64,000 nt of DNA from Physcomitrium patens (taxonomy: Eukaryota; Streptophyta; Bryopsida; Funariales; Funariaceae), in contig NC_037273.1 in NCBI RefSeq assembly GCF_000002425.4, positions 12,143,986 to 12,207,985 of the forward strand, read 5' to 3'. A program made the translations under genes and the position numbers. The notes beneath the pieces were generated by a model. It worked only from the letters and a program-made list of their open reading frames with translations. It was not told the origin of the DNA and did no database searches. Within the stretch, counting starts at the first letter, position 1, and each line of letters opens with the position of its first letter. Below are positions 18,833-61,317 of the stretch, one piece after another.

Positions 18833-18837
18833 TTTTG

Positions 18838-19389
18838 TGTCACGGCCATAATCATGTAAGCTAATAATTACATATAGTAATAGGTAGAAGTAAGTAAAAG
18901 TAGATAAAAGTAAGTTAATTATATAATATTTAATATAGAAGCTTCCTAGAAACTTCCTAGACACTGCTTTGACTTCATAGGTATCTTTAATTGACTTTTT
19001 GGATTAGAAACATGGTCAACAAGTTGGCCATGTGCCACACATGTTGTTAGCTTGAAGATCAAGCTAACTATGTGGCCCACATGTAGAAAAACTTGCCTTG
19101 TAAGTCAAGGCATGTGTTCTACAAAGTCAACACATATTGGAGGTCCTATAGAACGTCGCCACGTAGCCCCTAGTTAGATAGTATATATAGAGACAAGAGT
19201 GAAGGCTTCTTCACTCTTGTCAACTCCTTTCTTGCTTCTAGTCCAGGTTCAAGAGTCTTTAGTTTCTTGTCTTGTGGCAATAGCCATTCTAGTTTCCTTT
19301 TAATATACCTACTTGTTTATATTTTGACTTATTATATCGAGATAGCCTTTTGGTGTATATTTTTCCTCATCGAGTCTTTGTCCTTGACA
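18838..19389 (+). repeat. Element A 5' LTR
   Basis: Begins TGTCACGG and ends CCTTGACA, 552 bp, the same length as the 3' copy. U3 contains a perfect 10-bp inverted repeat (GTTAGCTTGA at 19046-19055 and its complement at 19059-19068). It also has two GAAnnTTC palindromes near 18936-18961 that resemble interrupted heat-shock elements. A second perfect inverted repeat (13-bp arms, 19192-19221) spans the inferred transcription start. Confidence 0.97.
19182..19223 (+). promoter_or_regulatory. Element A promoter: TATA box and inferred start
   Basis: TATATATA at 19182-19189. The conserved motif ACTCTTGTCAA (19213-19223) starts 31 nt downstream of the first T, the usual distance to a TATA-dependent start. 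Its complement recurs as the presumed primer binding site just after the LTR, which supports 19213 as the 5' end of the genomic RNA. The same spacing recurs in the solo LTR at 9.1 kb and the nested LTR at 31.1 kb, and in B at 32 nt. The start itself is inferred, not observed. Confidence 0.75.
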
Positions 19390-19391
19390 GA

Positions 19392-19402
19392 TTGACAAGA
19401 GT
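19392..19402 (+). promoter_or_regulatory. Element A primer binding site, self-priming type
   Basis: TTGACAAGAGT lies 2 nt after the 5' LTR and is the exact reverse complement of ACTCTTGTCAA at the inferred start of the element's own RNA (19213-19223). There is no TGG-initial tRNA complement adjacent to the LTR. About 20 nt further on, ATATCAGAGC (19412-19421) matches the core of the plant tRNA-iMet primer site TGGTATCAGAGC, but it is too far from the LTR for standard priming and lacks the leading TGG. Confidence 0.7.
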
Positions 19403-19438
19403 ACACTTACGATATCAGAGCTTTGTTTTTTCTTGAGT

Positions 19439-19507: not shown

Positions 19508-19601
19508 AACTGATATTGTTCTTAGTATCTTCTTTGTTATCAAGTCTTTCTTTTCTTTTGTCTTGAGAAATATCAAACAAATTTTTCTTCTTAGTGTCAT
19601 T

Positions 19602-20606
19602 ATGGCAGAACTTGTTGAAATGAAGAGTGCAATGGCACAAATGCAAGAGCAAATGAGGGAGTTAATGCTTGCGATGCATCAACTCAATTCACCAATACAT
19701 GAAAGAACAAGAATAGCAGAAAGTGGAGATATAGAGATGATCGGAGCTGCTTCAACATCTACAACAAATCACGTTCCTTCTCCAATTGTACAACACCCTA
19801 TAAGCACTAGAGAACCAAGAATTGCCTTACCTGAGAAATTTGATGGTACGAGATCAAAGTTTCAAGGGTTCATCAATCAAGTACAATTGGCAATTGAACT
19901 TCAACCGCAAAGCTATCCAACTCCAGGATCACAAGTCAGGTTTATTGGCACTCTACTTTCTGGTTCTGCATTATCATGGTTTTCGTCTTTTCTTGAACAA
20001 CGAAATCCAATATTGGACAATTTGGAAGCTTTTTTGGCGGAGTTTCGATCTATGTATGGTGAACACGATGCAACTCGTGTTGCAACAAATAAGATCCGAA
20101 TTCTGCGACAAGGAAATCGCTCAGTAACAGTGTATGCTTCACAATTTCGACAACTTGCAATTGACATCAAGTGGGATGATGCTGCACTCATCAGTCAATT
20201 TCTTTATGGATTGCAATACGAAGTAAAGAAATTGATGCTCAACTTACCTGATCCTCAAACTTTGAGTCAAGCAATCGATTTTGCGGTAAAATGTGATAAT
20301 CGACTTTTTGAATTTCGATCCAAGAATCATTCACGGGAACCTCAACGTTATTACTCAATGGCAACATCAACATCTTTGCCAAACGTACATTCGGAAGTAG
20401 AAGACATGCAAATTGACGCGGTACGTTTTAAACCTCTAACTGAGCAAGAAAAGATTCGTCGTCGTCAAGAAGGATTATGTTTATATTGCGGAGAACCTAA
20501 GCACACTGCTCAACATTGTCCAAAGAAACGACGCAACTATAAAATGAGGGGTACGACGGTCAAAGAAGACAACATGTCGGAAAACGGATTCGTCCAGCTA
20601 CAATAG
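19602..20606 (+). CDS. gag: Element A Gag
   Basis: A 334-aa Gag that would form the particle packaging the element RNA. I chose the ATG at 19602 because the leader before it has no conserved coding; the open frame extends 13 codons upstream. A short predicted coiled coil (Met/Glu/Gln-rich, residues about 1-30) is followed by a linker. A retrotransposon Gag domain runs from about residue 75 to 240 (motifs LPEKFDGTRSKFQGF and WFSSFLEQR). A CCHC zinc knuckle lies at 293-306 (C-x2-C-x4-H-x4-C). The stop at 20604-20606 sits at the same place as in B and C, and pol follows in the -1 frame. The closest relative in the window is the Gag of B. Confidence 0.92.
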   Translation: MAELVEMKSAMAQMQEQMRELMLAMHQLNSPIHERTRIAESGDIEMIGAASTSTTNHVPSPIVQHPISTREPRIALPEKFDGTRSKFQGFINQVQLAIELQPQSYPTPGSQVRFIGTLLSGSALSWFSSFLEQRNPILDNLEAFLAEFRSMYGEHDATRVATNKIRILRQGNRSVTVYASQFRQLAIDIKWDDAALISQFLYGLQYEVKKLMLNLPDPQTLSQAIDFAVKCDNRLFEFRSKNHSREPQRYYSMATSTSLPNVHSEVEDMQIDAVRFKPLTEQEKIRRRQEGLCLYCGEPKHTAQHCPKKRRNYKMRGTTVKEDNMSENGFVQLQ

Positions 20607-23600
20607 GGACCGTGCAGCTGGAACCTTGTACAATTCCTAATGAAGGTCCTATCCTCTCCTCAGAACCCTCTCCTTGTTTTATAATAGACTTATATTTAGG
20701 ACCTAAGAATTACAAAGCCTCTGCTTTATTAGATTCGGGAGCCTCAGCATGTTTTTTAGATGAACAATTTGTTAAAAGTCGTAAAATACCCTTTGTACAG
20801 AAACCTAAACCAGTACATGTAGAAGTCATAGATGGTCGTCCCTTGTCTTCTGGAGATGTCACTCATGAAACTCATCCTATAAAAGTAACAATAGACGGTC
20901 ATGATAGCTACATAGCTTTTAACATAATTAAATCCCCGTCCAATCCAGTTATTTTAGGTTTATCTTGGCTAGAAAAATATAACCCTCGAATAGATTGGAA
21001 TTCGCGTAAACTTGACTTTTCCCAAAGTATTATTAATAGCTCTACCAACCAAATAAAAAATTATAAGTCTAGTACAGTAAAACCAGTACTGATAGGTGCA
21101 AAAGTATTTATACACGCAGCAAAAGAAGGATCAACTTTTGCTATTTATGCTGCACCTATTTCTGAAAATGTAAAGACTTCAAGTAGCATTCCAAGTCAAT
21201 ATCAGGAGTATCAAGACGTTTTTGAGAAAAAGAATGCAGATATTCTTCCTGAGCATCGCCCATATGATTGTTCAATCGACCTCAAGGAAGGAACTCAGCC
21301 ACCATTTGGACCAATTTACAGTTTATCGCAAGATGAGATGGCTGAACTCAAGACATATATTGACGAGAATTTAGCGAAGAATTTCATACGCCATTCAAAA
21401 TCTCCAGCAGGAGCTCCAATTCTATTCGTAAAGAAAAAAGATGGATCTTTACGAATGTGTGTTGATTATCGAGGACTCAACAAGATCACAATCAAGAACA
21501 GGTATCCATTACCTTTGATATCAGGACTCCTTGACCAGTTGAATCAAGCTAAGATCTATATAAAAATAGATCTAAGAGGAGCATATAATCTAGTACGGAT
21601 CAAAGAAGGAGATGAATGGAAGACTGCGTTTCGAACCAGGTATGGACATTTCGAATATAATGTCATGCCTTTTGGACTCACGAATGCACCAGCTGCTTTT
21701 CAACATCTCATGAATGATATATTTCGTGAATTCTTAGACAATTTTGTCGTCTGCTATCTAGACGAAATCCTGATCTATTCTAAGAACGTCGAAGAACATG
21801 AAATACATGTTCGTCAAGTATTACAAAAACTTAGAGATGCAGGATTGTATGCCAAGATGGAAAAGTGTGTATTTCACACTACTCAAGTTGACTTTTTAGG
21901 ATACATCATTTCAAATGATGGTCTCATGATGGATTCTAAGAAAGTCCAAACAATCGTGGATTGGAAGATTCCAAGGACAGTAAGAGATGTCCAATGTTTC
22001 TTGGGATTTGCCAATTACTATCGGATCTTCATCAAAGATTTCTCACGAGTTGCAGCTCCACTTACACGCTTGACTAGTAAAGATAAATTTCAATGGAATC
22101 AAGAAGCAGAAGCAGCATTTGAAGCCTTGAAGACATTGTTTGTCTGTGCACCAGTCTTATATCGTGTTGACTTTTCCAAGGCATTTTTTATGGAAACAGA
22201 TGCATCAGATTTTGCCTTGGGTGCAGTTTTATCACAAATGGGAACAGATGACAAACTCCATCCGATAGCTTTTCATTCAAGAAAATTCTCAGCAGCCGAG
22301 ATCAATTATGAGATCCACGATAAAGAACTTCTTGCGATCGTGGATTCCTTTCAAGAATGGCGTCATTATCTAGAAGGCGCTTCTAGTCCAGTCACTGTGT
22401 ATACAGATCACAAGAACCTCGAGTATTTCATGTCAACACGCGTGTTGAATCGTCGTCAAGCTCGTTGGAGTATGTCTTTGTCAAGATTCGAGTTCATTAT
22501 CACTTATCGGCCAAGAAAACAACAAGGTTTATCCGATGCCCTATCTAGACGTTCTTATTTTGCACCAAAAGAAGGAGATGCAGCTTTTGAGCAACAAAGA
22601 ACGGTCCTCTTGAAACCGGGGCAATTTCATCTCCGAGCAATGAAATCAACATTGACTGTTGATTCAACTTTTCTCAAGCAAATCCAGTCCAGTATGTCCT
22701 CAGACCCTCTTGTTTATGATATCGAGAATAATTCTTCCAAGTCTCATGATCCTTCTAAGTTTGAGTTCAAGAATAATCTATTATATTTTGAAGGACGCCT
22801 ATATGTTCCAGAAGGAGAAGCACGTTTACGTGTTCTTCAAGCACGTCATGACTTTCCAGCAGCAGGGCACTTTGGATATAATAAGACTTTGGAACTCATA
22901 TCAAGAGATTTTTGGTGGCCACAAATGTGGAAGTCAGTCAAAGACTTTGTACAATCATGTGATATTTGTTCAAGATCAAAAATTCCTCGTCATCGACCTT
23001 ACGGACTTCTTCAGCCATTACCTATACCAAAACAACCATGGTCTTCTGTTTCTATGGATTTCATCACAGATCTTCCAAGCTCAAGATCTTATGATTCTAT
23101 ATTTGTGATAGTAGATCGTTTCACCAAGATGGCACATTTTGTGCCATGTACAAAATCTATCACAGGTGAAGAAACAGCTAAGCTTTTCATTGATAATATC
23201 TATCGCTATCATGGATTACCTAAAGATATCATATCGGATAGGGGAACTCAATTTGTGTCAAGATTTTGGAGGACCCTTTTCAAGATTTTAAAAGTGGACA
23301 TAAAGCTATCTTCGGCTTTCCATCTTCAAACTGATGGACAAACAGAGCGCGTAAACCAAGTCTTGGAGCAATATTTAAGGTGTACTATCAACTACCAACA
23401 AGATGATTGGACAACCCTTCTGCCATTGGCAGAGTTTGCTTATAATAATACGGTACATTCTTCCACGCAACAAACACCTTTCTTTGCCAATTATGGCTAT
23501 CATCCACGACTTGATACTTTTGATTTTTCAAAAGTTGATAATCCTGCAGCAGAAGATATGACAAATCGGTTGTCAGAGTTACATGCAATAATGAAGACAC

Positions 23601-24100
23601 AATTGAAGGAAGCTCAAGAACGACAAAAGATAAACGCAGATCTATATCGTAAGGAGCAACCACAAATCAACATGGGTGATAAGGTATGGCTACTTCGTCG
23701 CAATATCAAGACTACTCGACCTTGTGATAAGTTGGACTATCGTAGGCTTGGCCCCTTTTCTGTTTCTGAACAGATCAACCCAGTTGCATATCGGTTACAT
23801 CTACCGGAGTCAATGAAGATCCATCCTGTATTCCACGTATCTCTTCTTGAACCATATAAGACAGTGGATATACAAGGAAGAAGACAAATGCCACCGCCTC
23901 CTATAGAAGTAGATAATAATGAAGAATTTGAGGTGGAAGAGATATTAGACTCAAGGCGGCGCCGAAATAAGCTGGAATATCTTGTTCATTGGCGCGGATA
24001 TGATATTAGTGAACACACATGGGAGCCATCCAGGAATCTAACAAATGCATCAGCTAAAGTCAAAGTTTTTCATCAACGACATCCATCAAAACCAAGATGA
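20543..24100 (+). CDS. pol: Element A Pol polyprotein with chromodomain
   Basis: One open frame, reached from gag by a -1 shift within 20543-20606. No ATG precedes the protease. Counting from 20612 as residue 1, the order is aspartic protease (DSGA at 41-44), reverse transcriptase ([19 protein letters not shown] near 272-290; active box YLDE at 382-385), RNase H (TDAS at 529-532, HDKELLAI near 569-576, YTDH at 597-600) and integrase. The integrase has an HHCC zinc finger (H746, H753, C783, C786) and the triad D816, D876, E912. A GPF motif (1047-1049) and a chromodomain (about 1105-1157; EFEVEEILD, YLVHWRGY, HTWEP) follow. The chromodomain keeps aromatic residues at all three cage positions and could bind methylated H3K9. 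Two oddities are E385 for the second catalytic Asp and HLQTDGQ where B has HPQTDGQ. Confidence 0.95.
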   Translation, partial: NEGYDGQRRQHVGKRIRPATIGTVQLEPCTIPNEGPILSSEPSPCFIIDLYLGPKNYKASALLDSGASACFLDEQFVKSRKIPFVQKPKPVHVEVIDGRPLSSGDVTHETHPIKVTIDGHDSYIAFNIIKSPSNPVILGLSWLEKYNPRIDWNSRKLDFSQSIINSSTNQIKNYKSSTVKPVLIGAKVFIHAAKEGSTFAIYAAPISENVKTSSSIPSQYQEYQDVFEKKNADILPEHRPYDCSIDLKEGTQPPFGPIYSLSQDEMAELKTYIDENLAKNFIRHSKSPAGAPILFVKKKDGSLRMCVDYRGLNKITIKNRYPLPLISGLLDQLNQAKIYIKIDLRGAYNLVRIKEGDEWKTAFRTRYGHFEYNVMPFGLTNAPAAFQHLMNDIFREFLDNFVVCYLDEILIYSKNVEEHEIHVRQVLQKLRDAGLYAKMEKCVFHTTQVDFLGYIISNDGLMMDSKKVQTIVDWKIPRTVRDVQCFLGFANYYRIFIKDFSRVAAPLTRLTSKDKFQWNQEAEAAFEALKTLFVCAPVLYRVDFSKAFFMETDASDFALGAVLSQMGTDDKLHPIAFHSRKFSAAEINYEIHDKELLAIVDSFQEWRHYLEGASSPVTVYTDHKNLEYFMSTRVLNRRQARWSMSLSRFEFIITYRPRKQQGLSDALSRRSYFAPKEGDAAFEQQRTVLLKPGQFHLRAMKSTLTVDSTFLKQIQSSMSSDPLVYDIENNSSKSHDPSKFEFKNNLLYFEGRLYVPEGEARLRVLQARHDFPAAGHFGYNKTLELISRDFWWPQMWKSVKDFVQSCDICSRSKIPRHRPYGLLQPLPIPKQPWSSVSMDFITDLPSSRSYDSIFVIVDRFTKMAHFVPCTKSITGEETAKLFIDNIYRYHGLPKDIISDRGTQFVSRFWRTLFKILKVDIKLSSAFHLQTDGQTERVNQVLEQYLRCTINYQQDDWTTLLPLAEFAYNNTVHSSTQQTPFFANYGYHPRLDTFDFSKVDNPAAEDMTNRLSELHAIMKTQLKEAQERQKINADLYRKEQPQINMGDKVWLLRRNIKTTRPCDKLDYRRLGPFSVSEQINPVAYRLHLPESMKIHPVFHVSLLEPYKTVDIQGRRQMPPPPIEVDNNEEFEVEEILDSRRRRNKLEYLVHWRGYDISEHTWEPSRNLTNASAKVKVFHQRHPSKPR

Positions 24101-24644: not shown

Positions 24645-24658
24645 AGAAGGGGGGGTAA
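24645..24658 (+). promoter_or_regulatory. Element A polypurine tract
   Basis: AGAAGGGGGGGTAA lies immediately upstream of the 3' LTR, where plus-strand DNA synthesis is expected to start. Confidence 0.85.
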
Positions 24659-25210
24659 TGTCACGACCATAATCATGTAAGCTAATAATTACATATAGAA
24701 ATAGGTAGAAGTAAGTAAAAGTAGATAAAAGTAAGTTAATTATATAATATTTAATATAGAAGCTTCCTAGAAACTTCCTAGATGCTACTTTGACTTCATA
24801 GGTGTCTTTAATTGACTTTTTGGATTAGAAACGTGGTCAACAAGTTGGCCATGTGCCACACATGTTGTTAGCTTGAAGATCAAGCTAACTATGTGGCCCA
24901 CACGTAGAAAAACTTGCCTTGTAAGTCAAGGCATGTGTTCTACAAAGTCAACACATATTGGAGGTCCTATAGAACGTCGCCACGTAGCCCCTAGTTAGAT
25001 AGTATATATAGAGACAAGAGTGAAGGCTTCTTCACTCTTGTCAACTCCTTTCTTGCTTCTAGTCCAGGTTCAAGAGTCTTTAGTTTCTTGTCTTGTGGCA
25101 ATAGCCATTCCAGTTTCCTTTTAATATACCTAGTTGTTTATATTTTGACTTATTATATCGAGATAGCCTTTTGGTGTATATTTTTCCTCATCGAGTCTTT
25201 GTCCTTGATA
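24659..25210 (+). repeat. Element A 3' LTR
   Basis: 552 bp, from TGTCACGA to CCTTGATA, followed by the TTTTG target duplication. It differs from the 5' copy at about 11 positions by eye. Confidence 0.97.
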
Positions 25211-25215
25211 TTTTG

Positions 25216-30901: not shown

Positions 30902-30979
30902 AAATACAACAATAGAAGTGAAATAATCTACTCAATTTTAAAATAAGACAAGAACAATAAGTTAGCATTCTGATCAAAT

Positions 30980-32015
30980 TGTTAAAGATATGAATTTTGA
31001 AGAAAGGAATCCTTAATAAATTCTTGTATCACTTGATAAGACTAAGAAATTACTTAAAGATGGTAATATATTATTATAAATATATATCTACTATAATTGT
31101 TACCTAAGTAATATAAATAGATAGAATTAAGTAAAAGTAGATTAATTTTATAATATCTTCTATTTTGACTTTACATGTGTCTATAATTGATTTGTAGGTT
31201 AGAAACTTGGTCAACAAGTTAACCACGTGCCACATGTATTAATAGTTTGTGGAACAAGCTAACTATGTGCCACATGTGTTGATAGTTTGTTGAATAAGCT
31301 AACTATGTGGTGCTCATATATAAAACTTATCTTGTAAGTTAAGATATGTGTCATACAAAGTTAATACATTTTTGGAGGTCCTATAGAACGTCGCCACATA
31401 GATCCTAGTTAGATAGTATATATAGAGGCTAGAGTAAAGTCTTCTTCACTCTTGTCAATTCCTTTCTTGTTTCTAGTGTAGTTTCAAGAGTCTCTATTTT
31501 CCTTGTCTAAACTCCACAAAAATAAATATGACAAAATAGAAATAGAGAAGTATGTATATTAAAAATAAAACTAGAATGGCTATTGCCAAAAGACAAAGAA
31601 ACTAAAAACTCTTGAAATTATACTAAAAACAAGAAAGGCATTGATAAGAGTGAAGTATGCTTCACTTTTGCCTCCATATATATTATCTAACTAAGAGCTA
31701 TGTGACAATATTTATAGGACTTCCAACATGTGTTGACTTTGCTAAACATATGTCTTAACTTATAAAGCAAGTTTTCTATATGAGCGCCACATAGTTAGCT
31801 TGTTCCACAAACTATTAACGTGTATGGCACATGGTTAACTTGTTGATTAAGTTTCTAATCTATCAATCAACTACAAACACATATAAAGTCAAAACTACAT
31901 CTATGAAACTTTGAGGAAGCTTCTTTAGAAGATATTGTTAAATTAATCTATATTTACTTACTTCTATCTAATCATATAAAAAATGATTGGAATAAATATA
32001 TTTATATCTATGATA
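30980..32015 (-). repeat. Element D 5' LTR, split by a nested LTR
   Basis: Minus-strand LTR sequence occupies 30980-31071 and about 31511-32015. Between them is an LTR of the same family in plus orientation (31072 to about 31510). The outer end reads TGATA followed by the putative target duplication TAACT. An alternative reading is that the 31511-32015 segment is a separate minus-strand LTR that replaced the rest of D's own LTR. Inner borders are approximate. Confidence 0.65.
31072..31510 (+). repeat. Nested plus-strand solo LTR
   Basis: An A-family LTR in plus orientation with TATATATA at 31417-31424 and the start motif ACTCTTGTCAA at 31448-31458, again 31 nt apart. Its 3' end cannot be followed beyond about 31510, and no clear target duplication is seen, so it may be truncated. 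With the neighbouring minus-strand LTR it forms a roughly 0.9-kb inverted pair. Confidence 0.7.
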
Positions 32016-43844: not shown

Positions 43845-46523
43845 TCACGGCGATGCGAGAGATGACGTTAATTCCTGGATATCCAAGAGAGAAATCCTGG
43901 AGATGTCTTCTCGGACCAGCTGGGGCCCTTCCGCTGTCAGTTGCTCCTTGCTGAGAGTTGTCGTCACCGAAATGCACCTGATCCGAGCATACGACACCAG
44001 TCAAAAAATGTGACCGGGCTCTGTTTTGGTTACGTGCGTAGTGTGCTAGCCGCGTGATTCACCCACGCTGGTTTAGCCGTGAAAATGTGCGATGGGAATT
44101 TATGCGAAGGCAGTGAAGGAAAGTTCGTACCTCATGCCGGCAGCTCTTGCGGCCTGCACGCCGGCGATTGCATCTTCGATCACCACGCACTGCAGTCAAC
44201 CGCAACAAATGTGAGATTTCAATACGCTGGATTCGGTGTGCTAGTGAGGAATCGGAACACCGAACACCCACGTTCAATCATGCCAAGAATACTCGTTTTC
44301 TATACCTCATGCGGTGGCAATCCGAGGCTCTCGGCAGCTGCAAGAAAGGCGTCGGGGGCAGGCTTCAATCTCTCGAACAAGTCTGCCGCGATGATTGCGT
44401 CGAAACTGCGAGTGATGGAAGCGGTCTCAGACGACACGAAACGTAACAGCAAAATCACGACGAGATTGTGGGTGTTTCATTTAAAAGTACTAGGTCAATG
44501 GCATGGCATTCCACTAAATATCTTGGAGCAATCGTCGCACCAGGTTGGGTACTGCAATAACTGTTTGGAAAGCGTTAACTTAAAACAAACGAGTCGGAAG
44601 ATTAGACATTTAGCAAACAAAGGGGAGTAGAGATGATTCGATAGATACGTATTTTGTGGGATGCCCGCGGCAGCAAGGTTTGCATCCACCTTGACTCGGT
44701 CGGCACTTGAAGCCACTGCGAGCTTCAAGCCAGCCTCTTTACACTGCCATCAGACGCACCAACCCATCAAAAAAATAAAGAATAAAGAAATAAATAAATA
44801 AATAAATAGAGAGATAAAAACATTTTTAATAAGGGGAATTTTACAAAAAGGGGAACAATTTTTCTACATATTTTCTATGGTAAATCTCAATCGACCCCGT
44901 TTGGCAGAGTTATGGTCATTACAAAAAAAAAATCCTTTTCTCATAACAATTCATTTGCAAAAAATAAAATTGCACATAATTTTTGGAAGGTTCTGTACAA
45001 TGGTTAACTATTTCAAGTTAAAAATTGGTAGCTCTTCAAAGTGTTTATTTTGCAAGCCTGATTTTTCAAAGGTAGTTGTGGAGCAATCAGTTGTTGAAGT
45101 CAAAAAAGAGGTGTGTCGCATAGTTCATCAGCAAATCTTTTTGCTACGTTACTGTACATACTGTCAACAGATAAAGCAAGCAAAAAAAATCGTTCCCCTG
45201 TTTGTAATTATTTTAATTTTGTTCCCCTATTTGTAAATACTTCCAAATTTGTTCACTTATTCTTAAATTCCTTTTAAAAAAATTCAGTGAATATGGTTAT
45301 GAGGCCGAACTCCTCGCTGACATATTTCAAGTTTTTCCTATTTGTATGTACTTAGCTTCTGGCGTGATTCTCGAAATTATTGGATACAAACCTGGAGAAT
45401 CAAGTCCAACGCTCCAGGATATCCTAGTCCGGAGTTAGGCGTGGCGAACTGCAACACAATGCGACGACAATTGAGCTCAGATTACAACATTTTACGTCGT
45501 TAATTAACTCACAGCTGAGTGTCTCCCAACAGTTTGAAAAATCCAAGGCACGGTCGTAGAAAACGAGGAAACCAATGATGGGCCTTTTCACGCAAACACC
45601 TTTCCGATGTAAATTTGATAATAGCGCTTCTTTGCGGACGCAGTATCGAAATCCTTGATTCCGTATTTCCTTGCCACTCCACCGAGAAAGTTCGCATCAC
45701 CTGTGATCAGATCACACAAACGTAAACTACACCGAAATTCTGCTTCCTTTCGTTATCATCGCATTGACCGAATCAGCCATTTTCCAAGCCTCAATCATGG
45801 TAATTCTTATCATTCTCGTTTTGTTTTACCTGTGGATTGCTTGAGGGAAACGTTTTTTTAAACATACGTATAGTTGGATCTAATTATGTAGCCTCTCATA
45901 GTAGTTTACAGAAGCTTTCACGAATCGATTAATAATCTTCGGTCATCGAAACCATCCCTTCATCTAGTTCCATACAGCCCAAATCTCGACCCAGGTATGG
46001 TCGACGTCACATCAAACTTTGCAAGCTGCAACTCAAATCAAATTGTATCCAGAAACGTAAGTCGCAGAAGAAAGCAGCGAAACCCAAGCTCTGAGATGCA
46101 CATACCAGTGCCCATGAATGGAATGAAATCTTTGTCATCTACAATATACCCCATCTCCGCGAACAGCTCAACGGCAGCCTTGCGCGAGCAATGCTCACTG
46201 TCACAAAGCACGCCGTCCATGTCAAACAACACTCCTCGCACCACACTCGTTGCTGCCGGAGCTCCACCCACCTCCGACACAGACACCTTGCGCACCTCAC
46301 CCGCCGACGCTTTCACCACCACTCTCCGAACATCCTTCACCTCACTTCCGACTCGTACACCGCCAACGCGGCTCCTCCTCATCATGGGCACGAGCCTGGG
46401 TGCCGAGACTGGCGTCGCCGCAGGCTCCCGCGCCAGCAAGCTCCCAATTCCCTTGCCCAGCTCCACTACCTCCATGGAAACCACGCGAATTACTCCTGCA
46501 AATTCACGAGCAAACTTGTCCAA
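43845..46523 (-). CDS. Plastid-type HAD phosphatase, SOQ1 HAD-domain homologue
   Basis: Seven coding exons with agreeing phases: 46523-46106, 45700-45600, 45448-45392, 44743-44649, 44405-44306, 44189-44131 and 43977-43845, giving 320 aa. Residues 1-90 are Arg/Ser/Val/Ala-rich, fit a chloroplast transit peptide, and contain VVVKASA as a plausible cleavage region. A second Met at 17 could also start. The HAD domain has FDMDGVL (100-106; nucleophile D101, acid D103), AVASSADR (201-208), LKPAPD (237-242) and CVVIEDA (258-264). The sequence closely resembles the stromal HAD domain of Arabidopsis SOQ1. In SOQ1 that domain is followed by a membrane helix, a thioredoxin-like domain and an NHL propeller. 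Here a stop follows directly. It is probably a stromal sugar- or nucleotide-phosphate phosphatase; the substrate is unknown. Confidence 0.9.
44833..45271. mobile_element. Possible inverted-repeat insertion in HAD-gene intron
   Basis: Within the third intron (45391-44744) lies an AT-rich segment whose ends are imperfect inverted repeats of about 27 bp (GGAATTTTACAAAAAGGGGA-like on the left, the complement of GGAATTTAAGAATAAGTGAA on the right). The GGGGAACAAATT-type block recurs near 45195-45235. It carries a 119-codon plus-strand open frame (44877-45236) without a recognised domain. A non-autonomous DNA transposon is possible. No clear target duplication is visible. Confidence 0.4.
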
Positions 46524-47618
46524 TCTCCTGAAACGAACCGCAATTGCCTGATGATTTGCGTTGGTGGGGCTAGAAGCACCGATGTCGAAGTGGATCGGAA
46601 GTCGCGGTATGCAGTGAATTATGAGGCTTGGCAGGGGGTATGGAGGATCGAGGAGGAGGGAGGGAGAGATTGCGATCCAGGGGTGAGTGTTGGCTGGACT
46701 GTTTCTTTCATTCTTTCTGTGTCCAGAAGGGGCGGTGTGGTTATGGCCATTTCTTTTTGCGGGGGACGATGATCACCACATGTGGGTGTGGTGATGTTTA
46801 GTTCGTTCGTTTGTTCAATGGACCTGCCTCGACGCCATCGCAAATATCTATCTATCAATTTTATCTTCCTTGTTGCGTGCAACTGGTGCTCGCTCCCCCC
46901 CATCGCCCTCGCCTCACAGTCGCCTCCGCCTCGCCTCCTACCGGCTCAAACTGTGGACGGACGCACGGATGAACGAGTGGATGAATTTTATGCTTTAACG
47001 AATGAAGGATGTGTGGATAGATGGATGGCTTCATTTTATGGATGAAAATTTATGGATTGGTGAATGGATGAAATGATATGGATGGATGAATAAATGGATG
47101 GGCACCTTGTGCTTCCTAAAAGAGATTTGTTTTGTAATAGACTCTTGTTTTGTTGATGCCAATGTTTATAGATATTTTTAATGTAAAATGCATTAAGGGA
47201 CATAAACTAATAGGATAAAATAGAAGAGACAAATTTGATCTCTAATCAGTTGCATCTCTTATTGTTCTCATTAAAAATGAAGCAAAAGTGAAGCAATTCA
47301 TAGAGCCTTAACAACACATATGATTTACTATTATTTCAAAAAATGATATCACATTAGCTTTTGACTCAACCATCATTGTTTTCATGAATTATCTTGATGA
47401 AACCAATGAATATTTTTTTTTAGTAAAAATAAGATTGAATGATATATCGGGGCATTCTTAATCATTATTCTATGTTCATTGATCTTTGTTTTCTAGATGG
47501 TCTTATAATTTTGAATTTTGTATAGAATCAACTTGACATGGCTTTGGAGAAGTTGTAGATCTCACGATAGATATTAAGAGACTATGAGAACATCAACAAC
47601 AATACATGCATCTATATG
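46524..47618. other. Promoter region of HAD gene and intergenic DNA
   Basis: 46524-46760 is GC-richer and is the expected leader/promoter of the minus-strand HAD gene. 46960-47103 is a degenerate tract built on GGAT/GGATGAA units. The rest is AT-rich up to element B. Overlapping open frames on both strands (46191-46903) have biased composition and are not called. Confidence 0.5.
46960..47103. repeat. Degenerate GGATGAA-type minisatellite
   Basis: About 140 bp dominated by imperfect GGAT, GGATGAA and TGAATGGA units. No coding or structural role evident. Confidence 0.75.
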
Positions 47619-47638
47619 TGTTAGGGACATATTCCTTA

Positions 47639-47934
47639 GAACTTTCTAGAGAGAAGTTTCTAGAACCTTCTAGAAAACAAGCCTCTGGAACCTTCTAGAA
47701 GAGAAGCCTCTGGAACCTTTTAGAGAGAAGTTTCTAGAAGCTTCTAGAAAGAAAGTCTCTGGAACCTTCTAGAAGAGAAGTTTCTAGAAGCTTCTAGAAA
47801 GGAATCCCCTGGAACTTTCTAGAAGCTTCCTAGTTAATAGAAGAAGCTCGAGAAGTTTCTAGAACCTTCTAGAAAGGAAGCCTCTAGAACCTTCTAGAAG
47901 CTTCCTAGTTAATAGAAGTAGCTCGAGAAGCTTC
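47639..47934 (+). promoter_or_regulatory. Heat-shock-element array in element B 5' LTR
   Basis: Alternating GAA and TTC pentamers (nGAAnnTTCnnGAAn, the binding site of trimeric heat-shock factors) fill the U3. At least four stretches have five perfect consecutive modules, e.g. GAAgtTTCtaGAAccTTC plus taGAA near 47655-47677, with further 3- and 4-module sites. The array ends 12 bp before TATATATA (47946-47953). Heat-shock factor control is therefore likely, comparable in logic to the heat-activated copia element ONSEN. Activity here is inferred. Confidence 0.8.
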
Positions 47935-47945
47935 TTAAGTAGGAG

Positions 47946-47988
47946 TATATATAGGAATCGAGGCTGAAGAGTTCTTCAATCTCGATAA
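47946..47988 (+). promoter_or_regulatory. Element B TATA box and inferred start
   Basis: TATATATA at 47946-47953. The start motif begins 32 nt downstream at 47978. In this 5' copy it reads AATCTCGATAA, two transitions away from the 3' LTR copy AGTCTCGACAA (53772-53782), which is perfectly complementary to the primer site. Confidence 0.7.
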
Positions 47989-48115
47989 CACATCTCTTGG
48001 AGTTCTAGCTCACCTTTCTGGTGTTGTTCTTGTACTCATCTGTTTAATCTAGTTCTGCCACTTCTTCTTGAACTTCTTGTTAGATTTCAAGTCTGTATTT
48101 TGTGTCCGTGACAGT

Positions 48116-48126
48116 TTGTCGAGACT
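48116..48126 (+). promoter_or_regulatory. Element B primer binding site, self-priming type
   Basis: TTGTCGAGACT begins after a 2-nt gap from the LTR, exactly as in A. It is the perfect reverse complement of AGTCTCGACAA at the inferred RNA start as preserved in the 3' LTR. A tRNA-iMet-like core GATATCAGAGC follows at 48139-48149. Confidence 0.7.
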
Positions 48127-48162
48127 ACACTAACTTGAGATATCAGAGCTAGTTCTTTCTTA

Positions 48163-48350
48163 GTAGAGTGTGGATTACCCCTCTACTTGAAGGTATACTA
48201 GCATTTTTTAGAGGTTGCGGATTACCTTCCTCTAAACTGATACTTCTTCTGTTACAATATTGGAGTCTTATTCTTCTTGGAGAGAGTGGATTACCCCTCT
48301 TCTTGAAATTCTTAAGGCGTTTTATAGGTTGTGGATTACCCTCCTATAAA
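48163..48350 (+). promoter_or_regulatory. Element B leader: four GGATTACC-loop hairpins
   Basis: Potential hairpins have stems GTAGAG/CTCTAC (48163-48186), TAGAGG/CCTCTA (48209-48234), GAGAG/CTCTT (48282-48301, one G-T pair) and TTTATAGG/CCTATAAA (48321-48350). Each has GGATTACC in its loop. Spacing alternates about 47, 69 and 45 nt, so the two-hairpin unit of A appears tandemly duplicated here. Confidence 0.7.
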
Positions 48351-48393
48351 CCAATATTGCCTCTTATAGGGTCATTTTTGTCCTTCTTTCAGA

Positions 48394-49419
48394 ATGGCCG
48401 GAGGTCAAGACATTAGTATGACAGAAAGTTCGGAGTCTAAGTTAGATGCTATTATGAATGCCCTCGCTACGTTATCACAAAGAACTGCAAAGATTGAAGG
48501 AGTGGTGGCAAGGCTTCATAATGATGGAGTATCTAAAATAGCACAATCTAAACTACACCAGCCTCAAATTTCGGCACTTGGAGAAACAACTTTACCTCAG
48601 GTTCGACAAGAACCACTAGTTCTACAACATAAGGAGCCTCGAGTTAGCCTTCTAGATAAGTTTGATGGAACACGTTCCAAGTTTCGAGGATTTGTCAATC
48701 AAATCAGGTTGATAACAGTTTTACAGCCCGAACGATATCCAACGGAGGAGTCACGTGTTGGGCTTGTTGGAACCTTACTTACGGGACAAGCTCTATCATG
48801 GTTTGCTCCTTTGTTTGAGAAACGATCATCCATATTAAACAACTTCGAAACCTTTTTGGAAGCATTTGCGGAAGCATTTGGTGAACACGATAAGGTTCGA
48901 TGGGCTACAACAAAGATCCGGTCGCTACGACAAGGGATGCGTTCTACATCAGTCTATGCTTTGGATTTCAGGCAATTAGTATGCGACATTAATTGGGATG
49001 AAGAAGTGTTGATGAGTCAATTCTATTGGGGTTTAAGAGATGATGTGAAGGATTTGCTGTTAACTCTTCCGGATCCACGAACGCTCAATGAAGCCATTAA
49101 CCAAGCTGTGAAGTGCGATAATCGCCTATTCCAACGTCGCCAAGACCAACGCTCAAGACAACATACAATTCGCCATGCTCCAACTATGTCAGCAAGCGGT
49201 GTGAATTCGCATTCAGAGGTGGAAGACATGTAAATTGATGTGGTACGTATCAAATCTCTTACTATAGAAGAAAAAAAGCGACGTATGGAAGAAAATTTAT
49301 GCTTGTATTGCGGTGGAGAAGGCCACAAAGTCGGAAACTGCTCCAAAAAGCAAAATCGAGGCATAGTCAAGACTAGGGGAGTATTTGTTCAGGAAAACGA
49401 GGATGCCCAGCCACAGTAG
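48394..49419 (+). pseudogene. gag: Element B Gag, one internal stop
   Basis: Starts ATG (MAGGQD) and aligns with A Gag along its length. A Gag domain contains LLDKFDGTRSKFRGF and WFAPLFEKR, then a CCHC knuckle (C-x2-C-x4-H-x4-C) after the break. TAA at 49231-49233 stands where A has CAA, truncating Gag at 279 residues before the knuckle. The natural stop TAG (49417-49419) matches that of A in position. Confidence 0.9.
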
Positions 49420-52400
49420 GAACCGTGCGGCTGGACAATGAAATATCCCAACAACAATCAGGTTCCTTTCTTTCTGCCCAACCTGCACTTTGTTTTATAA
49501 TCCCTCTGTTTATCGGCCCTCAAAAACTGAGAACCTTAGCACTACTAGACTCGAGAGCATCTGCTTGTTTTTTACACGAAGAATTTGCAAAGCGTCATAA
49601 GATCCCTTTAGTACAAAAATCAAAACATGTTCATGTTGAGATCATAGATGGGCGACCTTTATTGTCTGGTAGCATCACCCATGAATCAAAACCTATAGAA
49701 GTAACGTTTAAAGACCATAGTAGTCATATTATTTTTAATACTATTAGAACCCCATCAAATCCTATTATTCTTGGTCTTTCTTGGTTGGAAAAACATAATC
49801 CATTGATAGATTGGAGGTTGCGGAAGATGACTTTTCCCACAAAACCACCCAAAAAAAAACCTAGTAAAAAACCTCGAAAAAAGAAATCCTTATTCATTGG
49901 AGCAAGAGCGTTTATAAGATCATCTAAGGAAGGCACTCCATTTGTCATTTATGCGGCTCCAACTACCGAGGAGAAGATCTCAACAGCAAGTATACCGGAG
50001 CAATATAAAGATTTTGAAGACGTGTTTCAAAAGAAGAACGCCGACATACTACCGGAACACCGACCATATGATTGTGCCATAGACTTGCAAGAAGGAGCAC
50101 AACCACCTTTTGGCCCAATCTACAATCTATCGCAAACGGAGTTGGCAGAGTTACGAAAGTACATCGACGAGAATCTAGCCAAGAACTTCATTCGTCATTC
50201 AAAATCATCAGCTGGAGCACCCATCTTATTTGTGAAGAAGAAAGATGGATCATTACGGATGTGTGTGGACTATCGAGGCCTCAACAAGGTAACAAAGAAA
50301 AATCGTTATCCATTATCCTTGATTTCTAGTCTCTTAGAACAACTTGGACGTGCGAAGATCTTTACAAAAATTGATCTAAGGGGAGCTTATAATCTCGTAC
50401 GAATCAAGGAAGGAGATGAGTGGAAGACAGCATTCTGTACAAGGTATGGTCATTTCAAATATAATGTCATGCCTTTTGGTCTTACTAATGGTCCAGCAGT
50501 TTTTCAACATATGATGAATGACATCTCTCGAGAACACCTCGACGATTTTGTTGTCATCTACTTGGACGATATTCTAATATTCTCTTAAAACGAGGAAGAG
50601 CATGAGAAGCATGTTCGTTTGGTCTTGGAGAAACTATGCAAGCGAGGACTATATGCCAAATTAGAAAAGTGTTTATTTCACCAGACGGAGATGGAATTTT
50701 TGGGGTTCATTGCGACTACAGAAGGTTTGAAGATGGACCCCAAGAAAGTAGAAGCAATCATGTCTTGGGAGGTTCCAAAGACGGTTAGAGACGTACAATG
50801 CTTTCTTGGTTTTGCTAACTTCTATCGGATCTTCATCAAGAATTATTCTCAAGTTGCTGCTCCTCTCACTCGATTAACATGTAAGGATAAGTTGGAATGG
50901 GGACCTTTGGCGGAGAAGGCGTTTCAAGATTTGAAGACAGCATTTACTACAGCTCTAATTTTGGTACATCCAGACTTTACAAAGGCCTTCTATTTAGAAA
51001 TTGATGCTTCAGATTTTGCTTTGGGAGCTGTGCTTTTACAAATGAGTGAAGATAAGAAGCTCCATCCAGTTGCATTCTATTCTCGAAAGTTCTCTGCTGT
51101 TGAAATCAATTATGAGATCCACGATAAGGAACTTCTTGCTATAGTCGATTCTTTCGAAGAATGGCATCACTTTCTTGAAGGAGCTGCACATCCAGTAACC
51201 GTATATATGGATCACAAGAATTTGGAGTATTTCATGACGGCTCAAGTTTTAAATCGGCGTCAAGCTCGGTGGAATATGTCGCTATCTTGATTCGATTTTG
51301 TTATCACTTATCGACCTGGAAGGCAGCAAGGACTATCCGATGCTTTATCAAGGAGATTGTATCTTGCACCAAAGGCTGGAGAAGCAGCATTTGATCAATA
51401 ATGTACAACGTTATTGAAGCCAGAGAGATTTCAACTTTGTGCTACTATTGTATCATTTGATGCTGACTTCCTAAACCAGGTATGTGCTATGACCATTAAA
51501 GATTCAGTAGCCATTGATATTAAACAACGTACCAATGACGACAAGTTCAAGGTGGAGGGAGATCTTTTATACTTTGAAGAGCGATTGTACATTCCAAAAG
51601 GACTAGCACGACTCCGAGTTCTTCAATCTCGCCATGATTTTCCAGCTGCGGGACATTTTGGATTCAACAAGACCTTGGAGCTTATTTCCCGAGATTTTTG
51701 GTGGCCCCAAATGTGGAAGGATGTGAAAGATTTTGTCCTCTCTTGTGACATCTGTTCAAGATCTAAGAATCCTCGGCATCGCCCTAATGGACTTCTACAG
51801 CCATTGCCAATTCCACGTCGACCATGGTCTTCAATTTCTATGGACTTCATCACGGACTTGCCATCATCAAACTCATTTGACAGCATCTTTGTCGTGGTAG
51901 ATCGGCTTACGAAGATGGCACACTTTATTCCTTGTAAGAAGACATCGTCCAGTGAAGTCACAGCAAGACTCTTTCTCGATAATGTGTATCGATATCATGG
52001 ACTACCAGATGATATCATATCAGATCGAGGTACCCAGTTTGTGTCAAATTTTTGGAGATCTCTCTTTGGGATATTGAAGGTGGATATCAAGCTTTCTTCA
52101 GCTTTTCATCCTCAAACTGATGGCCAAACGGAACGGGTGAACCAAGACTTGGAGCAGTACTTACGATGCAGCATCAACTATCAGCAAGACGATTGGACTG
52201 CATATCTACCGCTAGCCGAGTTTGCATATAACAACACCTTCCATGCATCGACTCAACAAACACCATTCTTTTCCAACTATGGGTATCATCCGAAGCTTGA
52301 TTTATTGAGTCCGTCAACAAATAACAATCCAGCAGGTGAAGGATTTGCGAAGCAATTATCAGAGCTTCAAACTATGTTAAAGCTTCAATTACAATCCACT

Positions 52401-52895
52401 CAAGAATCCTATAAGACGTCTGCAGATAGATTTCGGAATCCAGCACCTACTTTCAAAGTTGGAGACAAAGCCTGGCTTCTTTGACGAAATATCAAGACCA
52501 AGCGACCATGTGATAAGTTGGACTATCGAAGATTGGAACCATTTATCATCCAGAAGCAAATTAATCTAGTGGCATACCGGCTGGAGTTATCGGCTTCTAT
52601 GAAGGTACATCCAGTCTTTCATGTTTCTCTATTGGAACCTTATCGAGAGTCATCTTTTCCTGGAAGAATGCAATGTTCGCCACCTAGTATTGAAATCGAG
52701 AACCACGAAGAATACGAGGTTGAAAAGATATTGGATTCATGGCGAAGGTGGGGAAAGTTTGAATATCTTGTTCATTGGTGCGGCTATGACATTAATGAGC
52801 GAACGTGGGAGCCAGTTGAAAATCTTGCGAATGCGCCACAAAAGGTACAAGAGTTTCATCAACGACATCCCGATAAATCTAAATCAATTCGATGA
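49377..52895 (+). pseudogene. pol: Element B Pol, four internal stops
   Basis: Frame -1 relative to gag, opening after a stop at 49374-49376, with no ATG before the protease. The protease motif is DSRA where A has DSGA, so the catalytic Gly is replaced. The reverse transcriptase has an intact YLDD box. RNase H reads IDASDF. The integrase has its HHCC finger, D-D-E residues (MDF, SDR, TER) and HPQTDGQ. A chromodomain (EYEVEKILD, YLVHWCGYD, RTWEP) ends the protein at 52895. Stops are TAA at 50586, TGA at 51288, TAA at 51399 and TGA at 52482. All pieces stay in one frame. Confidence 0.93.
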
Positions 52896-53011
52896 TAGCT
52901 TCTTTCTGAAGCTTGTTCTCCCAACAATATAAGAAAAGGGGAGAGCACCAGCAAAATTCATAGTTGATGTAGTTATTTTCTCCAAGATAGATCGTAGTTT
53001 GGTCTTTTGAT

Positions 53012-53365
53012 ATGGATAGCCAAGAGATAGATACTATGCCAGTCAGAGTATCGCAACCGAGTAGCTCACGAAGGCGACCCCGAGATGAAGAACTACATGT
53101 ACTATGACGACGACGGAGGATACCGAGTAACCGATTACTGGTGATCGTATTTGAGATCGAGCCTGCTTACGATGGTCAACCAGAAGGCGTGTTTGCAGGA
53201 CAATTTCACAATGAGGACACGGAAGTTCATGCTTGGTCAGAAGTCGAAGGCGTGGGCCACTACCGTTGGCTTCAAGGGTCGATGAACCACTTGCCTCATG
53301 AACAACAGTTGGAATTCATAGCAGAAGTTATGCGACAGATCTTCATTTTCTTGCGTTGGTACTGA
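53012..53365 (+). pseudogene. Element B ORF3, one internal stop
   Basis: Starts ATG 116 nt after pol. It is 117 codons with a single TGA (53105-53107) that would be CGA (Arg) after one C-to-T reversal. The N-terminal part has an Arg-rich block (SSSRRRPRDEE), as in A. The C-terminal part keeps GHYRWLQGSMNHLPHEQ and a following helix. The middle differs from A in length and sequence, so only the ends are conserved. Confidence 0.7.
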
Positions 53366-53398
53366 TCAACAACATTGCTTCTCAAAGACCTCGAAGCT

Positions 53399-53412
53399 AA
53401 AGGAGGGGGTGA
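53399..53412 (+). promoter_or_regulatory. Element B polypurine tract
   Basis: AAAGGAGGGGGTGA lies directly before the 3' LTR. Confidence 0.85.
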
Positions 53413-53907
53413 TGTTAGGGACATATTCCTTAGAACTTTCTAGAGAGAAGTTTCTAGAACCTTCTAGAAAACAAGCCTCTAGAACCTTCTAGAAGAGAAG
53501 CCTCTGGAACCTTTTAGAGAGAAGTTTCTAGAAGCTTCTAGAAAGGAAGTCTCTGGAACCTTCTAGAAGAGAAGTTTCTAGAAGCTTCTAGAAATGAATC
53601 CCCTGGAACTTTCTAGAAGCTTCTTAGTTAATAGAAGTAGCTCGAGAAGTTTCTAGAACCTTCTAGAAATGAAGCCTCTGGAACCTTCTAAAAGCTTCCT
53701 AGTTAATAGAAGTAGCTCGAGAAGCTTCTTAAGTAGGAGTATATATAGGGATCGAGGCTGAAGAGTTCTTCAGTCTCGACAACACATCTCTTGGAGTTCT
53801 AGCTCATCTTTCTGGTGTTGTTCTTGTACTCATCTGTTTAATCTAGTTCTGTCACTTCTTCTTGAACTTCTTGTTAGATTTCAAGTCTGTATTTTGTGTC
53901 CGTAACA
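53413..53907 (+). repeat. Element B 3' LTR
   Basis: 495 bp with the same heat-shock-element array (about 53433-53728), TATATATA at 53740-53747 and start motif AGTCTCGACAA at 53772-53782. The final bases are CGTAACA, followed by the ATATG duplication. Confidence 0.97.
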
Positions 53908-54713: not shown

Positions 54714-57212
54714 TTGAAATGAAAGGAAAAATCTTGGATGCTATACTTGGCAAAAGTGAGAATAGATTTACAACTATTACTAATCTTCACAAGTTTGTCA
54801 ACACTCTTAGGATAGAAATTTCATGCATCACCAATGCCAACCATGAAAGCATTATTCCTATGTTTATGCAATAAGTCTAGAATCTACGCCAAGAAGTTGT
54901 GTAGTTGAAAGCAGTAAATAGATGATCTTCACAACCAAATCTAAGAAGTCTTACTTCTTAAAGTATGAGAGAGGTAAAGATTAATATAAGCGAGAAGTTT
55001 AATAGAACAAGATCAAAACTTTGAGGACTTCTGCCACAAGTCAAGCTTTATGTAAGGTTGTTTCTTTTCCAATATCCTAATGGATTTACTCAAGTTGGGT
55101 TCATGGATGCACTTCTATTTGGAAGTACTCTCTTTTGGTTTGTACCTTTGATAGAAAAAAATTCACAACTATTTTATGATTTGAATTCATTTCTAGAAGT
55201 ATTTAGAGCCTTATTTAGAAAAAGTGATCAAAAAAGAGTAGAAAAGACCAAGCTATTATTTTTATGACAAGGATTATGGTCAACCACCATATATGTGGTG
55301 TCATGTAGTAATATGACTATAAGGTAAAAAATGAAAACATGGATTTTTTTATAGAAGAGCCTAGTAAAAAGATGTAGTAGAAAATTAAAGATAAATGATA
55401 GGAAGGTAATAAAAGGTATAGTATTAATATTGCCTTTTAGAAAAGAAGCTCTATATTACTTTATAGGAGCATAAATGCCTCAAATAAAAATAAATAACAT
55501 AATTATTTAATATAGACACATTTAAAAGAGAATTAACAATAGGCTTAAGCAAAAATAACCTCAAATTACTAAATATTGATACTTAGAAAAGACCGATTGT
55601 CAACTTGGATCAAAATTAGACTCTGAGGCACAAAATTGAGCACCTACAGTGACTTTAGAGTTCTTTGGTACATCAGAGAGTGGAATTTGAGAGCAAACTT
55701 GCTAAGAGATTTTTAAGCATTGATTTTATATTAATCAAATTAATATTCAATTTTTGGAAGATTTTTAATATTAATGATATTTTTACTTGAATTAGATTTT
55801 AAAAAATAAAATTATATTTACAAAATTGAAGGTTTCTTGTATTTTGAGATATGTATATAGATAAAATTTGAACAAAGTATTGATATACTAATTTTTAATG
55901 TGTGTGCAAATTTTGAGATCAATCGAACAATTAGATCAAAGTATGTGAAGGTTTTCTAAGGATTGAAGTCTCAAAAATTGGATTTTGAAGGTTAGTGAGT
56001 ATTTTTAAGATCTTTAGCAATTTGTCAATTGGATTAAAGTGATTTTTTTTCTATTAAGAATAGACTCAATTTTCAACTATTTAGATGAATTCTCGGAGCA
56101 ATTCAATGGATTAAGAAGGAGATATTGGTACTAGAAGTTCAACATTTAAATTGGAGTAGGACATCGGCCAATACCTAAGTAGAATTTAAGATAGATCTTT
56201 TGTTTAGTAAGTTTGAACTTCTACAAATTTTGTGTACTTATTGTCAACTTACTTGTTGAGAGGTATATAAAATCTTAAGCAAAATCAATGGTATAATTGA
56301 TAAATATTGAGGTTCTAAATTATCCTATAATTAGATTATTTTGATTAAGATTTGATTTGGAATTTAGGAATTGGTTAGGATTTAGGATTTATTTAGGATT
56401 TAGGATTGTTTGGGATTTTTTTAAGATTTGACTTAGGATTTAATTAAAAACTATTAAGATTTTAATTAGGATTAAAATAAGATTTAGTTGAAATTTATTT
56501 AAGATATATTTATGATTTTATTTTAACACTTCATTTGAAATTCTTTAGGATTTTTTTATGCTTCTTTGTAAAAATTTTAAGGTTTTTTTGGATTTGATTA
56601 AAGCTTAATTGGCATTTTTAAGGTTTAATTGGAATTATTCAGAATTCTATAAGAGTTATAATCTTGTTGTTGCAATTTTTCTTCTAACTTCTATAGTTAA
56701 GTACTTAGTGCATTCTCAAACAAGGCTTCACGTAATATGATAACAATTGAATTCCAAAGCCTTACTTGTAATGTTGATTAGAATGACAAAGGCCTTATTA
56801 ATCTATTTCAATATAGATTGAAGAATAACATTAAAGATTTATATTAACAATATTGAAAGTAAATTCTTTGGAACAATTTATTATTTAAGCCATTGCATGC
56901 AACAATTGGCTATTTGAAAGATATCAAGAACAAAAATTTGGATAAAAAAGAACAAAACAAGTAATGATGGCAACTCCTAAGTTTTTAAAATCATATTCAT
57001 CGAGGCTAGAACTAATGCAAATTGATATGATATATTTCAAATTCTCACAAAGTAAAAAAAATTGAACAATGTAAAGAAGATTTATGCTTATATTATAGAG
57101 AAACTAAATAGACTGCTCAAAATTATCGAAAGAAGCAACACAATTACAAAATGAGGAGCATGATTGCTAAAAATGACAATGTATTGAAAAATGAGTTTTT
57201 CCAACTATAATA
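54714..57212 (+). pseudogene. Element C Gag, degraded and split
   Basis: Alignment by eye to A finds the N-terminal coiled-coil part near 54714-54870 and the Gag domain near 55058-55290 (FWFVPLIEKNSQLFYDLNSFLEVF). After an inserted block, the domain resumes near 56750-56900. A decayed zinc knuckle lies near 57082-57135 with several Cys lost. The gag stop position still reads TAG at 57210-57212. Confidence 0.75.
55296..56734. mobile_element. Insertion in element C gag, possible solo LTR
   Basis: 1439 bp that interrupt the Gag domain, bounded by identical 5-mers ATATG (55291-55295 and 56735-56739). The insert begins TGGTGTC and ends TTCACGTA. It has no coding content and includes repeated GGATTTAGGATT-type sequence near 56360-56420. 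A long solo LTR of another family fits, given TG/TA ends and a 5-bp duplication. Confidence 0.55.
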
Positions 57213-57219
57213 GGAATTG

Positions 57220-60200: not shown

Positions 60201-60293
60201 AATCTTTGATATAAAAGATTTATAATTTAAGAAAGATTACATCCAATATTTTAACTTTATTTATAATTTTTATATACTTATAATAATAAAGAG

Positions 60294-60611
60294 GTGGAAA
60301 ATCAACAACCAGTAGATTCAACTCAAAAGCCATTGTTTATTGACTAATTAGACAAGACATTATGATTATCAAAGCCTTCAAGATGACGTAATTAAAATAA
60401 ATATCTTTAAAAACAATATATTCTTCAAATAGATGGTGAGATAGAATGCATTTGATATGAAAACCTTGAAAGAGACTCTTGATGTTTGGCGATTTTATTG
60501 GATGTAAGAATAAAATTTTATGATATTAGAAATGTTTTGTTTGAAAGAAGTTATAAAGGCCTCAATAATAATAAAAAATTAGAGTGGTCTTTTTCAACTA
60601 GAATAAGATTA
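60294..60611 (+). pseudogene. Element C ORF3 remnant, first part
   Basis: Aligns with A ORF3 from the start codon (now GTG) through the segment corresponding to SYEGLNNDQ. The point matching A's TAA reads GAA here. The copy has several other stops and is cut by an insertion from about 60612 to 61161; the rest (GHYRWL-equivalent) continues to about 61260. Confidence 0.6.
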
Positions 60612-61161: not shown

Positions 61162-61317
61162 GTTATAGAGACATTATCAATGGCTGAAGGAACCTATCAA
61201 CTATCTTCAAAGAAAACAACTATCAAAATATGAAACAAATATAATTTAGAGCATCTTGGACTTCCTGAATATGTAACCACTATTCTTTGTGGAACTTGTC
61301 TTTAAAAAGAAAGATAA

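Follow-up and report, generated by a model that had tools for sequence, protein, structure and literature searches.

A Tcn1-like chromovirus in a moss genome very probably primes its own reverse transcription

In the retrotransposon Tf1, the first 11 bases of the RNA are base-paired to the PBS, and cleavage by RNase H falls between bases 11 and 12, according to the passages on priming in a published account which also mention that self-priming has been proposed for Cryptococcus Tcn1 (PMC7175516). Nonseed-plant elements are counted within the self-priming Tf1/sushi group in the part of another account that deals with them (PMC10085805). In the sections of Neumann et al. (2019) concerned with primers, self-priming was predicted for most Tcn1 and TAR copia elements, and for 12% of the surveyed elements overall, and tRNA-Met was reported as the primer of most chromoviruses (PMC6317226). 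Every moss investigated by that time had Tcn1 elements, whereas no seed plant did, and the passages on Selaginella SM-Tcn1 in Novikova et al. (2010) give no evidence of tRNA priming or self-priming for that element (PMC2864245).

The window analysed here is a 64,000-nucleotide stretch of DNA, and element A, on its plus strand, is a complete Ty3/gypsy element with LTRs, TSD, polypurine tract, and gag and pol frames. The 5-bp TSD TTTTG (18833 to 18837 on the left, 25211 to 25215 on the right) flanks both LTRs, and the 5' LTR (TGTCACG...TTGACA, 18838 to 19389) is 98.2% identical over 550 nt to the 3' LTR (24659 to 25210). The gag open frame, counted from stop to stop, runs from 19509 to 20606 and matches PF03732 and PF19259. 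The pol open frame, counted in the same way (20543 to 24100), encodes protease, RT, RNase H, integrase and a chromodomain, with matches to RVT_1, RNase H, rve and Chromo (54 bits for Chromo, the cut-off being 25). A polypurine tract, AGAAGGGGGGG, is located at 24645 to 24655, 3 nt upstream of the 3' LTR.

The 5' LTR is followed by the spacer GA (19390 to 19391) and then by the candidate PBS, TTGACAAGAGT (19392 to 19402), which is a perfect 11-nt complement of ACTCTTGTCAA (19213 to 19223). The latter is the proposed self-primer, the 11 nt with which the RNA is predicted to begin; its start is 31 nt downstream of the first T in the promoter-like motif TATATATA (19182 to 19189), and the same sequence is found again in the 3' LTR at 25034 to 25044. 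Since the LTR ends are fixed by the identity of the two LTRs and by the TSDs, the PBS starts exactly 2 nt past the LTR. The 11-nt complement, the 2-nt gap and the 31-nt distance from the TATA box had all been pointed out in an initial annotation of this DNA, and each was found where it had been placed. Pol II starts favour pyrimidine-purine, and the predicted start of the A RNA, C-A, fits this rule. The PBS of A, like that of element C described below, is complementary to the predicted 5' end of the RNA and is not of the tRNA type, which was judged by the presence of TGG, the complement of the tRNA CCA end, 0 to 5 nt from the LTR; no TGG lies in that interval in either element.

The LTR and leader were dinucleotide-shuffled in 2000 trials, and the longest LTR complement starting 0 to 5 nt past the LTR was recorded. 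In shuffled A this complement averaged 5.8 nt and reached 11 nt in 1 trial of 2000; an 11-nt complement was reached in 4 of 2000 trials for C, and a 12-nt complement in 0 of 2000 for L001, a relative introduced below. The primer 11-mer of A occurs 5 times in the window, as against 0.08 expected, and by position four of these occurrences are primer copies in LTRs of the family (A5, A3, 9.2 kb and 31.4 kb), the remaining one being the PBS of A. On these sequence counts, the complementarity of LTR and PBS is not due to chance.

A second family in the window, represented by element C (47619 to 53907, plus strand), has the layout of A with a different 11-mer. Its 5' LTR (47619 to 48113, TSD ATATG) is followed by GT and then, 2 nt past the LTR, by the PBS TTGTCGAGACT (48116 to 48126), the exact complement of which, the intact primer AGTCTCGACAA, is located at 53772 to 53782 in the 3' LTR (53413 to 53907). 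The primer copy in the 5' LTR, AATCTCGATAA (47978 to 47988), carries two changes and pairs with the PBS at 9 of 11 positions plus one G-U. A primer and PBS identical to those of C, likewise with a 2-nt gap, were found in L001, a close relative of C. This 3847-base contig, filed under a cyanobacterial MAG, encodes a related element, with 70% identity in its best segment and 80.5% over RT-RNase H. The gap between LTR and PBS is therefore of equal length in A, C and L001, and the distance from TATA to primer is 31, 32 and 32 nt, respectively. Three of the 11 positions differ between A and C in primer and PBS alike, every change in the one being compensated in the other: with their own partners the two primers pair at 11 of 11 positions, and when swapped at 8 of 11 (Watson-Crick). 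Because the tree described below joins C and L001 as sisters (support 100), this compensatory evidence is essentially a single comparison.

The initial annotation had called for a survey of related elements for the same complementarity and 2-nt gap; C and L001 have both. Element B is an old, interrupted copy on the minus strand, in which the self-primer copy of the 5' LTR, ACTCTTATCAA (31641 to 31651), pairs at 9 of 11 positions with the likely PBS, TTGATCAGAAT (30967 to 30977), placed by eye following ...TTTAACA and AT. Against the PBS of A the same primer would pair at 10 of 11 positions, which means that B has no preference for its own site. The decayed copy D has no recognisable PBS, its best candidate pairing at 6 of 11 positions. 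The misses in B, in D and in the 5' LTR of C fit decay, yet remain misses. Among six fetched relative loci, a complement between leader and LTR was found in L001 and L002, and L003, L004 and L006 hold, as read by eye, too little LTR and leader for the scan. No complement of at least 9 nt lies beside any scanned LTR end of L005 (ACA ends 300 to 800 nt into the LTR region). In L002, a more distant relative, a 13-nt LTR complement starts 1 nt past the LTR, and it stands, by our own count, about 55 nt beyond a TATA-like motif, compared with 31 in A.

The L002 contig is filed under an alphaproteobacterial MAG, and its LTR and the leader with the 13-nt complement (L002:5649-6040) make it another candidate for self-priming. 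All six loci, L001 to L006, are eukaryotic-type chromoviruses on contigs filed under bacterial genomes, presumably through contamination. A scan of viral contigs found no relatives there, and a scan of phage sequences gave one distant match.

We conclude that element A, a Tcn1-like chromovirus of the Tf1/sushi group in a moss genome, very probably self-primes its reverse transcription. Transcription would begin at A19213, and the first 11 nt of the RNA, whose complementarity to the PBS 2 nt beyond the LTR is given above, would fold back onto that site. As in Tf1, the RNase H of the element would then cut after nt 11, releasing an 11-mer from which minus-strand cDNA would be extended through U5 and R. 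During plus-strand synthesis the primer would serve as the template for a new PBS, so that the LTR motif and the PBS would stay matched while families diverge, a prediction which fits the matched changes of A and C. Self-priming had also been inferred in the initial annotation, and the layout of C and L001 with its matched changes, together with the predicted folds of A and L001, supports it well. When an A RNA begun at 19213 was folded, the minimum-energy structure paired nt 1 to 11 with the PBS (z -2.5; 2 of 200 shuffles as good). The minimum-energy structure of L001 likewise pairs 11 nt with the PBS (z -1.3; 24 of 200 shuffles as good), its overall modelled fold energy being unremarkable and no stronger than expected. 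The "pretzel" of Tf1 was searched for as two duplexes flanking the primer:PBS pairing, scored against 500 mononucleotide shuffles. The fraction of shuffles as good was 0.12 in A, 0.002 in C and 0.81 in L001 for the downstream side duplex, and 0.014, 0.96 and 0.99 for the upstream one; the side duplexes thus have no consistent presence across the three elements, being good in one of two for A and C and in neither for L001.

A 13-bp hairpin (-21.5 kcal/mol, z -6.9), overlooked in the initial annotation, gives nine of the 11 primer nucleotides of A another partner immediately upstream of them. Its 5' arm, on the U3 side (19192 to 19204, plus strand), sits between the TATA box and the predicted start, and its 3' arm (19209 to 19221) takes in nt 1 to 9 of the self-primer, so that the hairpin spans the predicted border of U3 and R. 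Hairpins of this kind that include the primer sequence are located at 19192-19221, 25013-25042 and 53752-53779. One reading, compatible with self-priming, is that the hairpin belongs to the priming machinery: it would lock the second primer copy, the one at the 3' end of the RNA, so that only the free 5' end would reach the PBS. We consider this possible and put it forward tentatively. If the RNA begins at 19213, the U3 arm is confined to its 3' end, as the reading supposes. The stems measure 13 bp in A, 12 bp in C and 13 bp in L001 (z -5.2 to -7.1), and both arms differ between A and C. In an alignment of 11 LTR segments, in which TATATATA is exact in 8 (7 of the 10 from the window, plus L001) and B5, B3 and D5 depart from it, 86% of the cells pair, compared with 44 to 50% when the partner is slid by 1 to 3 columns, and 4 of the 11 hairpin pairs are changed on both sides. 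A hairpin at a comparable position also follows the TATATATA of the distant L005 (9 of 500 mononucleotide shuffles as good).

Other results weigh against this masking of the primer. The covariation rests mainly on one split, the A group versus C and L001, and the number of pairs changed on both sides was reached by 128 of 500 shuffles, though the covariation score was reached by only 4 of 500. At least 98% of 300 shuffles fold less well than the native sequence in eight of the 11 LTR segments, whose stems are not all alike, but the folds of D5, D3 and E3 are unremarkable (85, 37 and 20 of 300 shuffles as good), and in a single fold of the region around the L002 primer no hairpin of this kind was seen. 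A role of the hairpin at the DNA level or at the start site is a possible alternative. The U3 arm and the primer would both be inherited through the 3' LTR, so the replication cycle would not match them automatically, unlike the primer and the PBS. The simplest reading is that the hairpin may hide the 3' primer copy. A more doubtful proposal is that the 11-nt self-primer and a U3 arm masking the 3' primer copy make up a switch whose two parts co-evolve in moss Tcn1-like elements. If true, such a switch would solve the problem that a self-primer located in R occurs at both ends of the transcript, and masking offers a testable account of how a self-priming element distinguishes its two primer copies. 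A literature search that was barely aimed at hairpins, and that had the original Tf1 papers outside it, listed no title on a U3/R hairpin of this kind.

The hairpin bears also on the view that the 11-nt match has no part in priming and is a by-product of an inverted repeat in the LTR, such as a palindrome in the promoter or a site for a factor. With its 13-bp stem it does give the LTR motif a second partner, but a palindrome leaves unexplained why an 11-nt copy follows the LTR of A, C and L001 after exactly 2 nt, and the last AA of the primer pairs with TT of the PBS but falls outside the hairpin; we therefore regard this view as highly improbable. Least probable of all is the use of tRNA-iMet at a shifted PBS, TATCAGAGC (19413 to 19421, plus strand, 23 nt past the LTR of A), since this 9-nt match to what we take to be the core of the plant tRNA-iMet PBS, although contained in a 12-mer, GATATCAGAGCT, that is common to A (19411 to 19422) and C (48139 to 48150) and occurs nowhere else in the window at up to 1 mismatch, lacks the TGG for the tRNA CCA end, lies far from the LTR edge, is missing from all six fetched loci including L001, was seen in neither the B nor the D leader, and would give a cDNA with extra nucleotides beside U5; as a working site it was rejected for the missing TGG, the distance from the LTR and its absence from L001. 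The 12-mer follows the self-primer site in A and C, and not in L001, B or D; it may have been left behind by an ancestral PBS of the tRNA type, or may belong to a leader fold.

The host, the type of chromodomain, the similarity of pol and the self-primer together point to Tcn1, the clade that forms the plant branch of the Tf1/sushi group, as the clade of element A, with no named Tcn1 sequence compared directly. Because the self-primer is itself taken as a pointer to Tcn1, that part of the argument is circular. Element A has a Ty3/gypsy pol with an integrase chromodomain, and the aromatic cage of the latter, read by eye from an alignment to human CDY-type chromodomains, has F at the Y24 position, followed by W and Y, its first residue thus being F and not Y. 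The cage is kept in 95% of Tcn1 elements and in about half of Chlamyvir and Galadriel elements, according to the passages on chromodomains in PMC6317226; in those of PMC3350952, a caged chromodomain is termed group I, and a Selaginella Galahad element combines a group I chromodomain with a tRNA-Met PBS. The cage alone is therefore not decisive for Tcn1. Among the best 120 of 7751 matches, the organism names given are those of fungi, a frog and an amoeba, and among the best 120 of 6282 matches to shorter proteins they are those of fungi, frogs and two seed plants, besides one bacterial MAG. Over RT-RNase H, element A has 62 to 66% identity to two Mucoromycota sequences, 50 to 60% to six other fungal sequences, 59 to 60% to two frog sequences and 54.5% to a third, and 53 to 55% to two seed plants. 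In an unrooted tree with weak deep order (39 to 61) and no named Tcn1 sequence included, a group made up of both window elements, L001 and four relatives from metagenomes stands apart from the rest (support 90), and the two seed-plant sequences, represented by pieces of 234 to 240 of 401 aa, form a clade of their own (100), set off by a long branch.

The host is a moss. Exons of a host gene on the minus strand, at 38.5-41 kb, have their best match in Physcomitrium patens (73% identity over a 313-aa hand-typed splice), and the other organism-named matches in a list of 20 are lycophyte, conifer and fern sequences. Taken by itself, an identity of 73% makes the host probably a moss other than P. 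patens. A second gene, at 44-46.3 kb, has HAD-domain exons (44100 to 46772, minus strand) with a Pfam HAD_2 match just below the cut-off, and resembles plant SOQ1 in this domain. The region from 56001 to 64000 contains old nested copies of the same family and has a GC content of 24%, which suggests decay by C-to-T change; in 4-kb bins, the GC content is 39% inside A (20001 to 24000) and 41% inside C (48001 to 52000). No Rfam family was found in the window at gathering thresholds.

As self-priming was already predicted for most Tcn1 elements by Neumann et al. (2019), element A joins a known kind, with added sequence evidence. The initial annotation had regarded such priming as not yet established, to its knowledge, for plant Ty3 elements. 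This is borne out in so far as tRNA-Met is the primer reported for most chromoviruses, but it goes too far for a moss host, self-priming being predicted for most Tcn1 elements in the same sections of that survey (PMC6317226). What the matched changes in primer and PBS add is further evidence for self-priming in plant Ty3 elements, for which the earlier support, in the portions of the literature covered here, was a prediction based on complementarity (Neumann et al., 2019), the question having been left open for a lycophyte Tcn1 element (Novikova et al., 2010).

Element A resembles Tf1 of Schizosaccharomyces pombe in that the first 11 nt of the RNA, predicted in A, are complementary to a PBS beside the LTR, whereas the cleavage, the start site and the side duplexes of the pretzel are putative in A. 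The mechanism proposed for A is also that proposed for vertebrate sushi elements and for self-priming fungal chromoviruses; its RT-RNase H is 50 to 66% identical to those of the eight named fungal and three frog proteins, which were compared by sequence regardless of their priming mode. The TAR-lineage Ty1/copia elements Houba and Osr-1 are plant elements with predicted self-priming (PMC6317226) that belong to a different superfamily from A. The usual chromovirus PBS, a tRNA-Met site beside the LTR (PMC6317226), characterises the seed-plant chromoviruses Tekay, Reina, CRM and Galadriel; A and C are without TGG within 0 to 5 nt of the LTR. SM-Tcn1 has separate gag and pol frames, as does A, in the description of that element in PMC2864245. 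With the Tcn1 clade, which includes elements of mosses, Selaginella and some fungi, element A shares its moss host, a caged chromodomain, fungal relatives, and a PBS that is not of the tRNA type.
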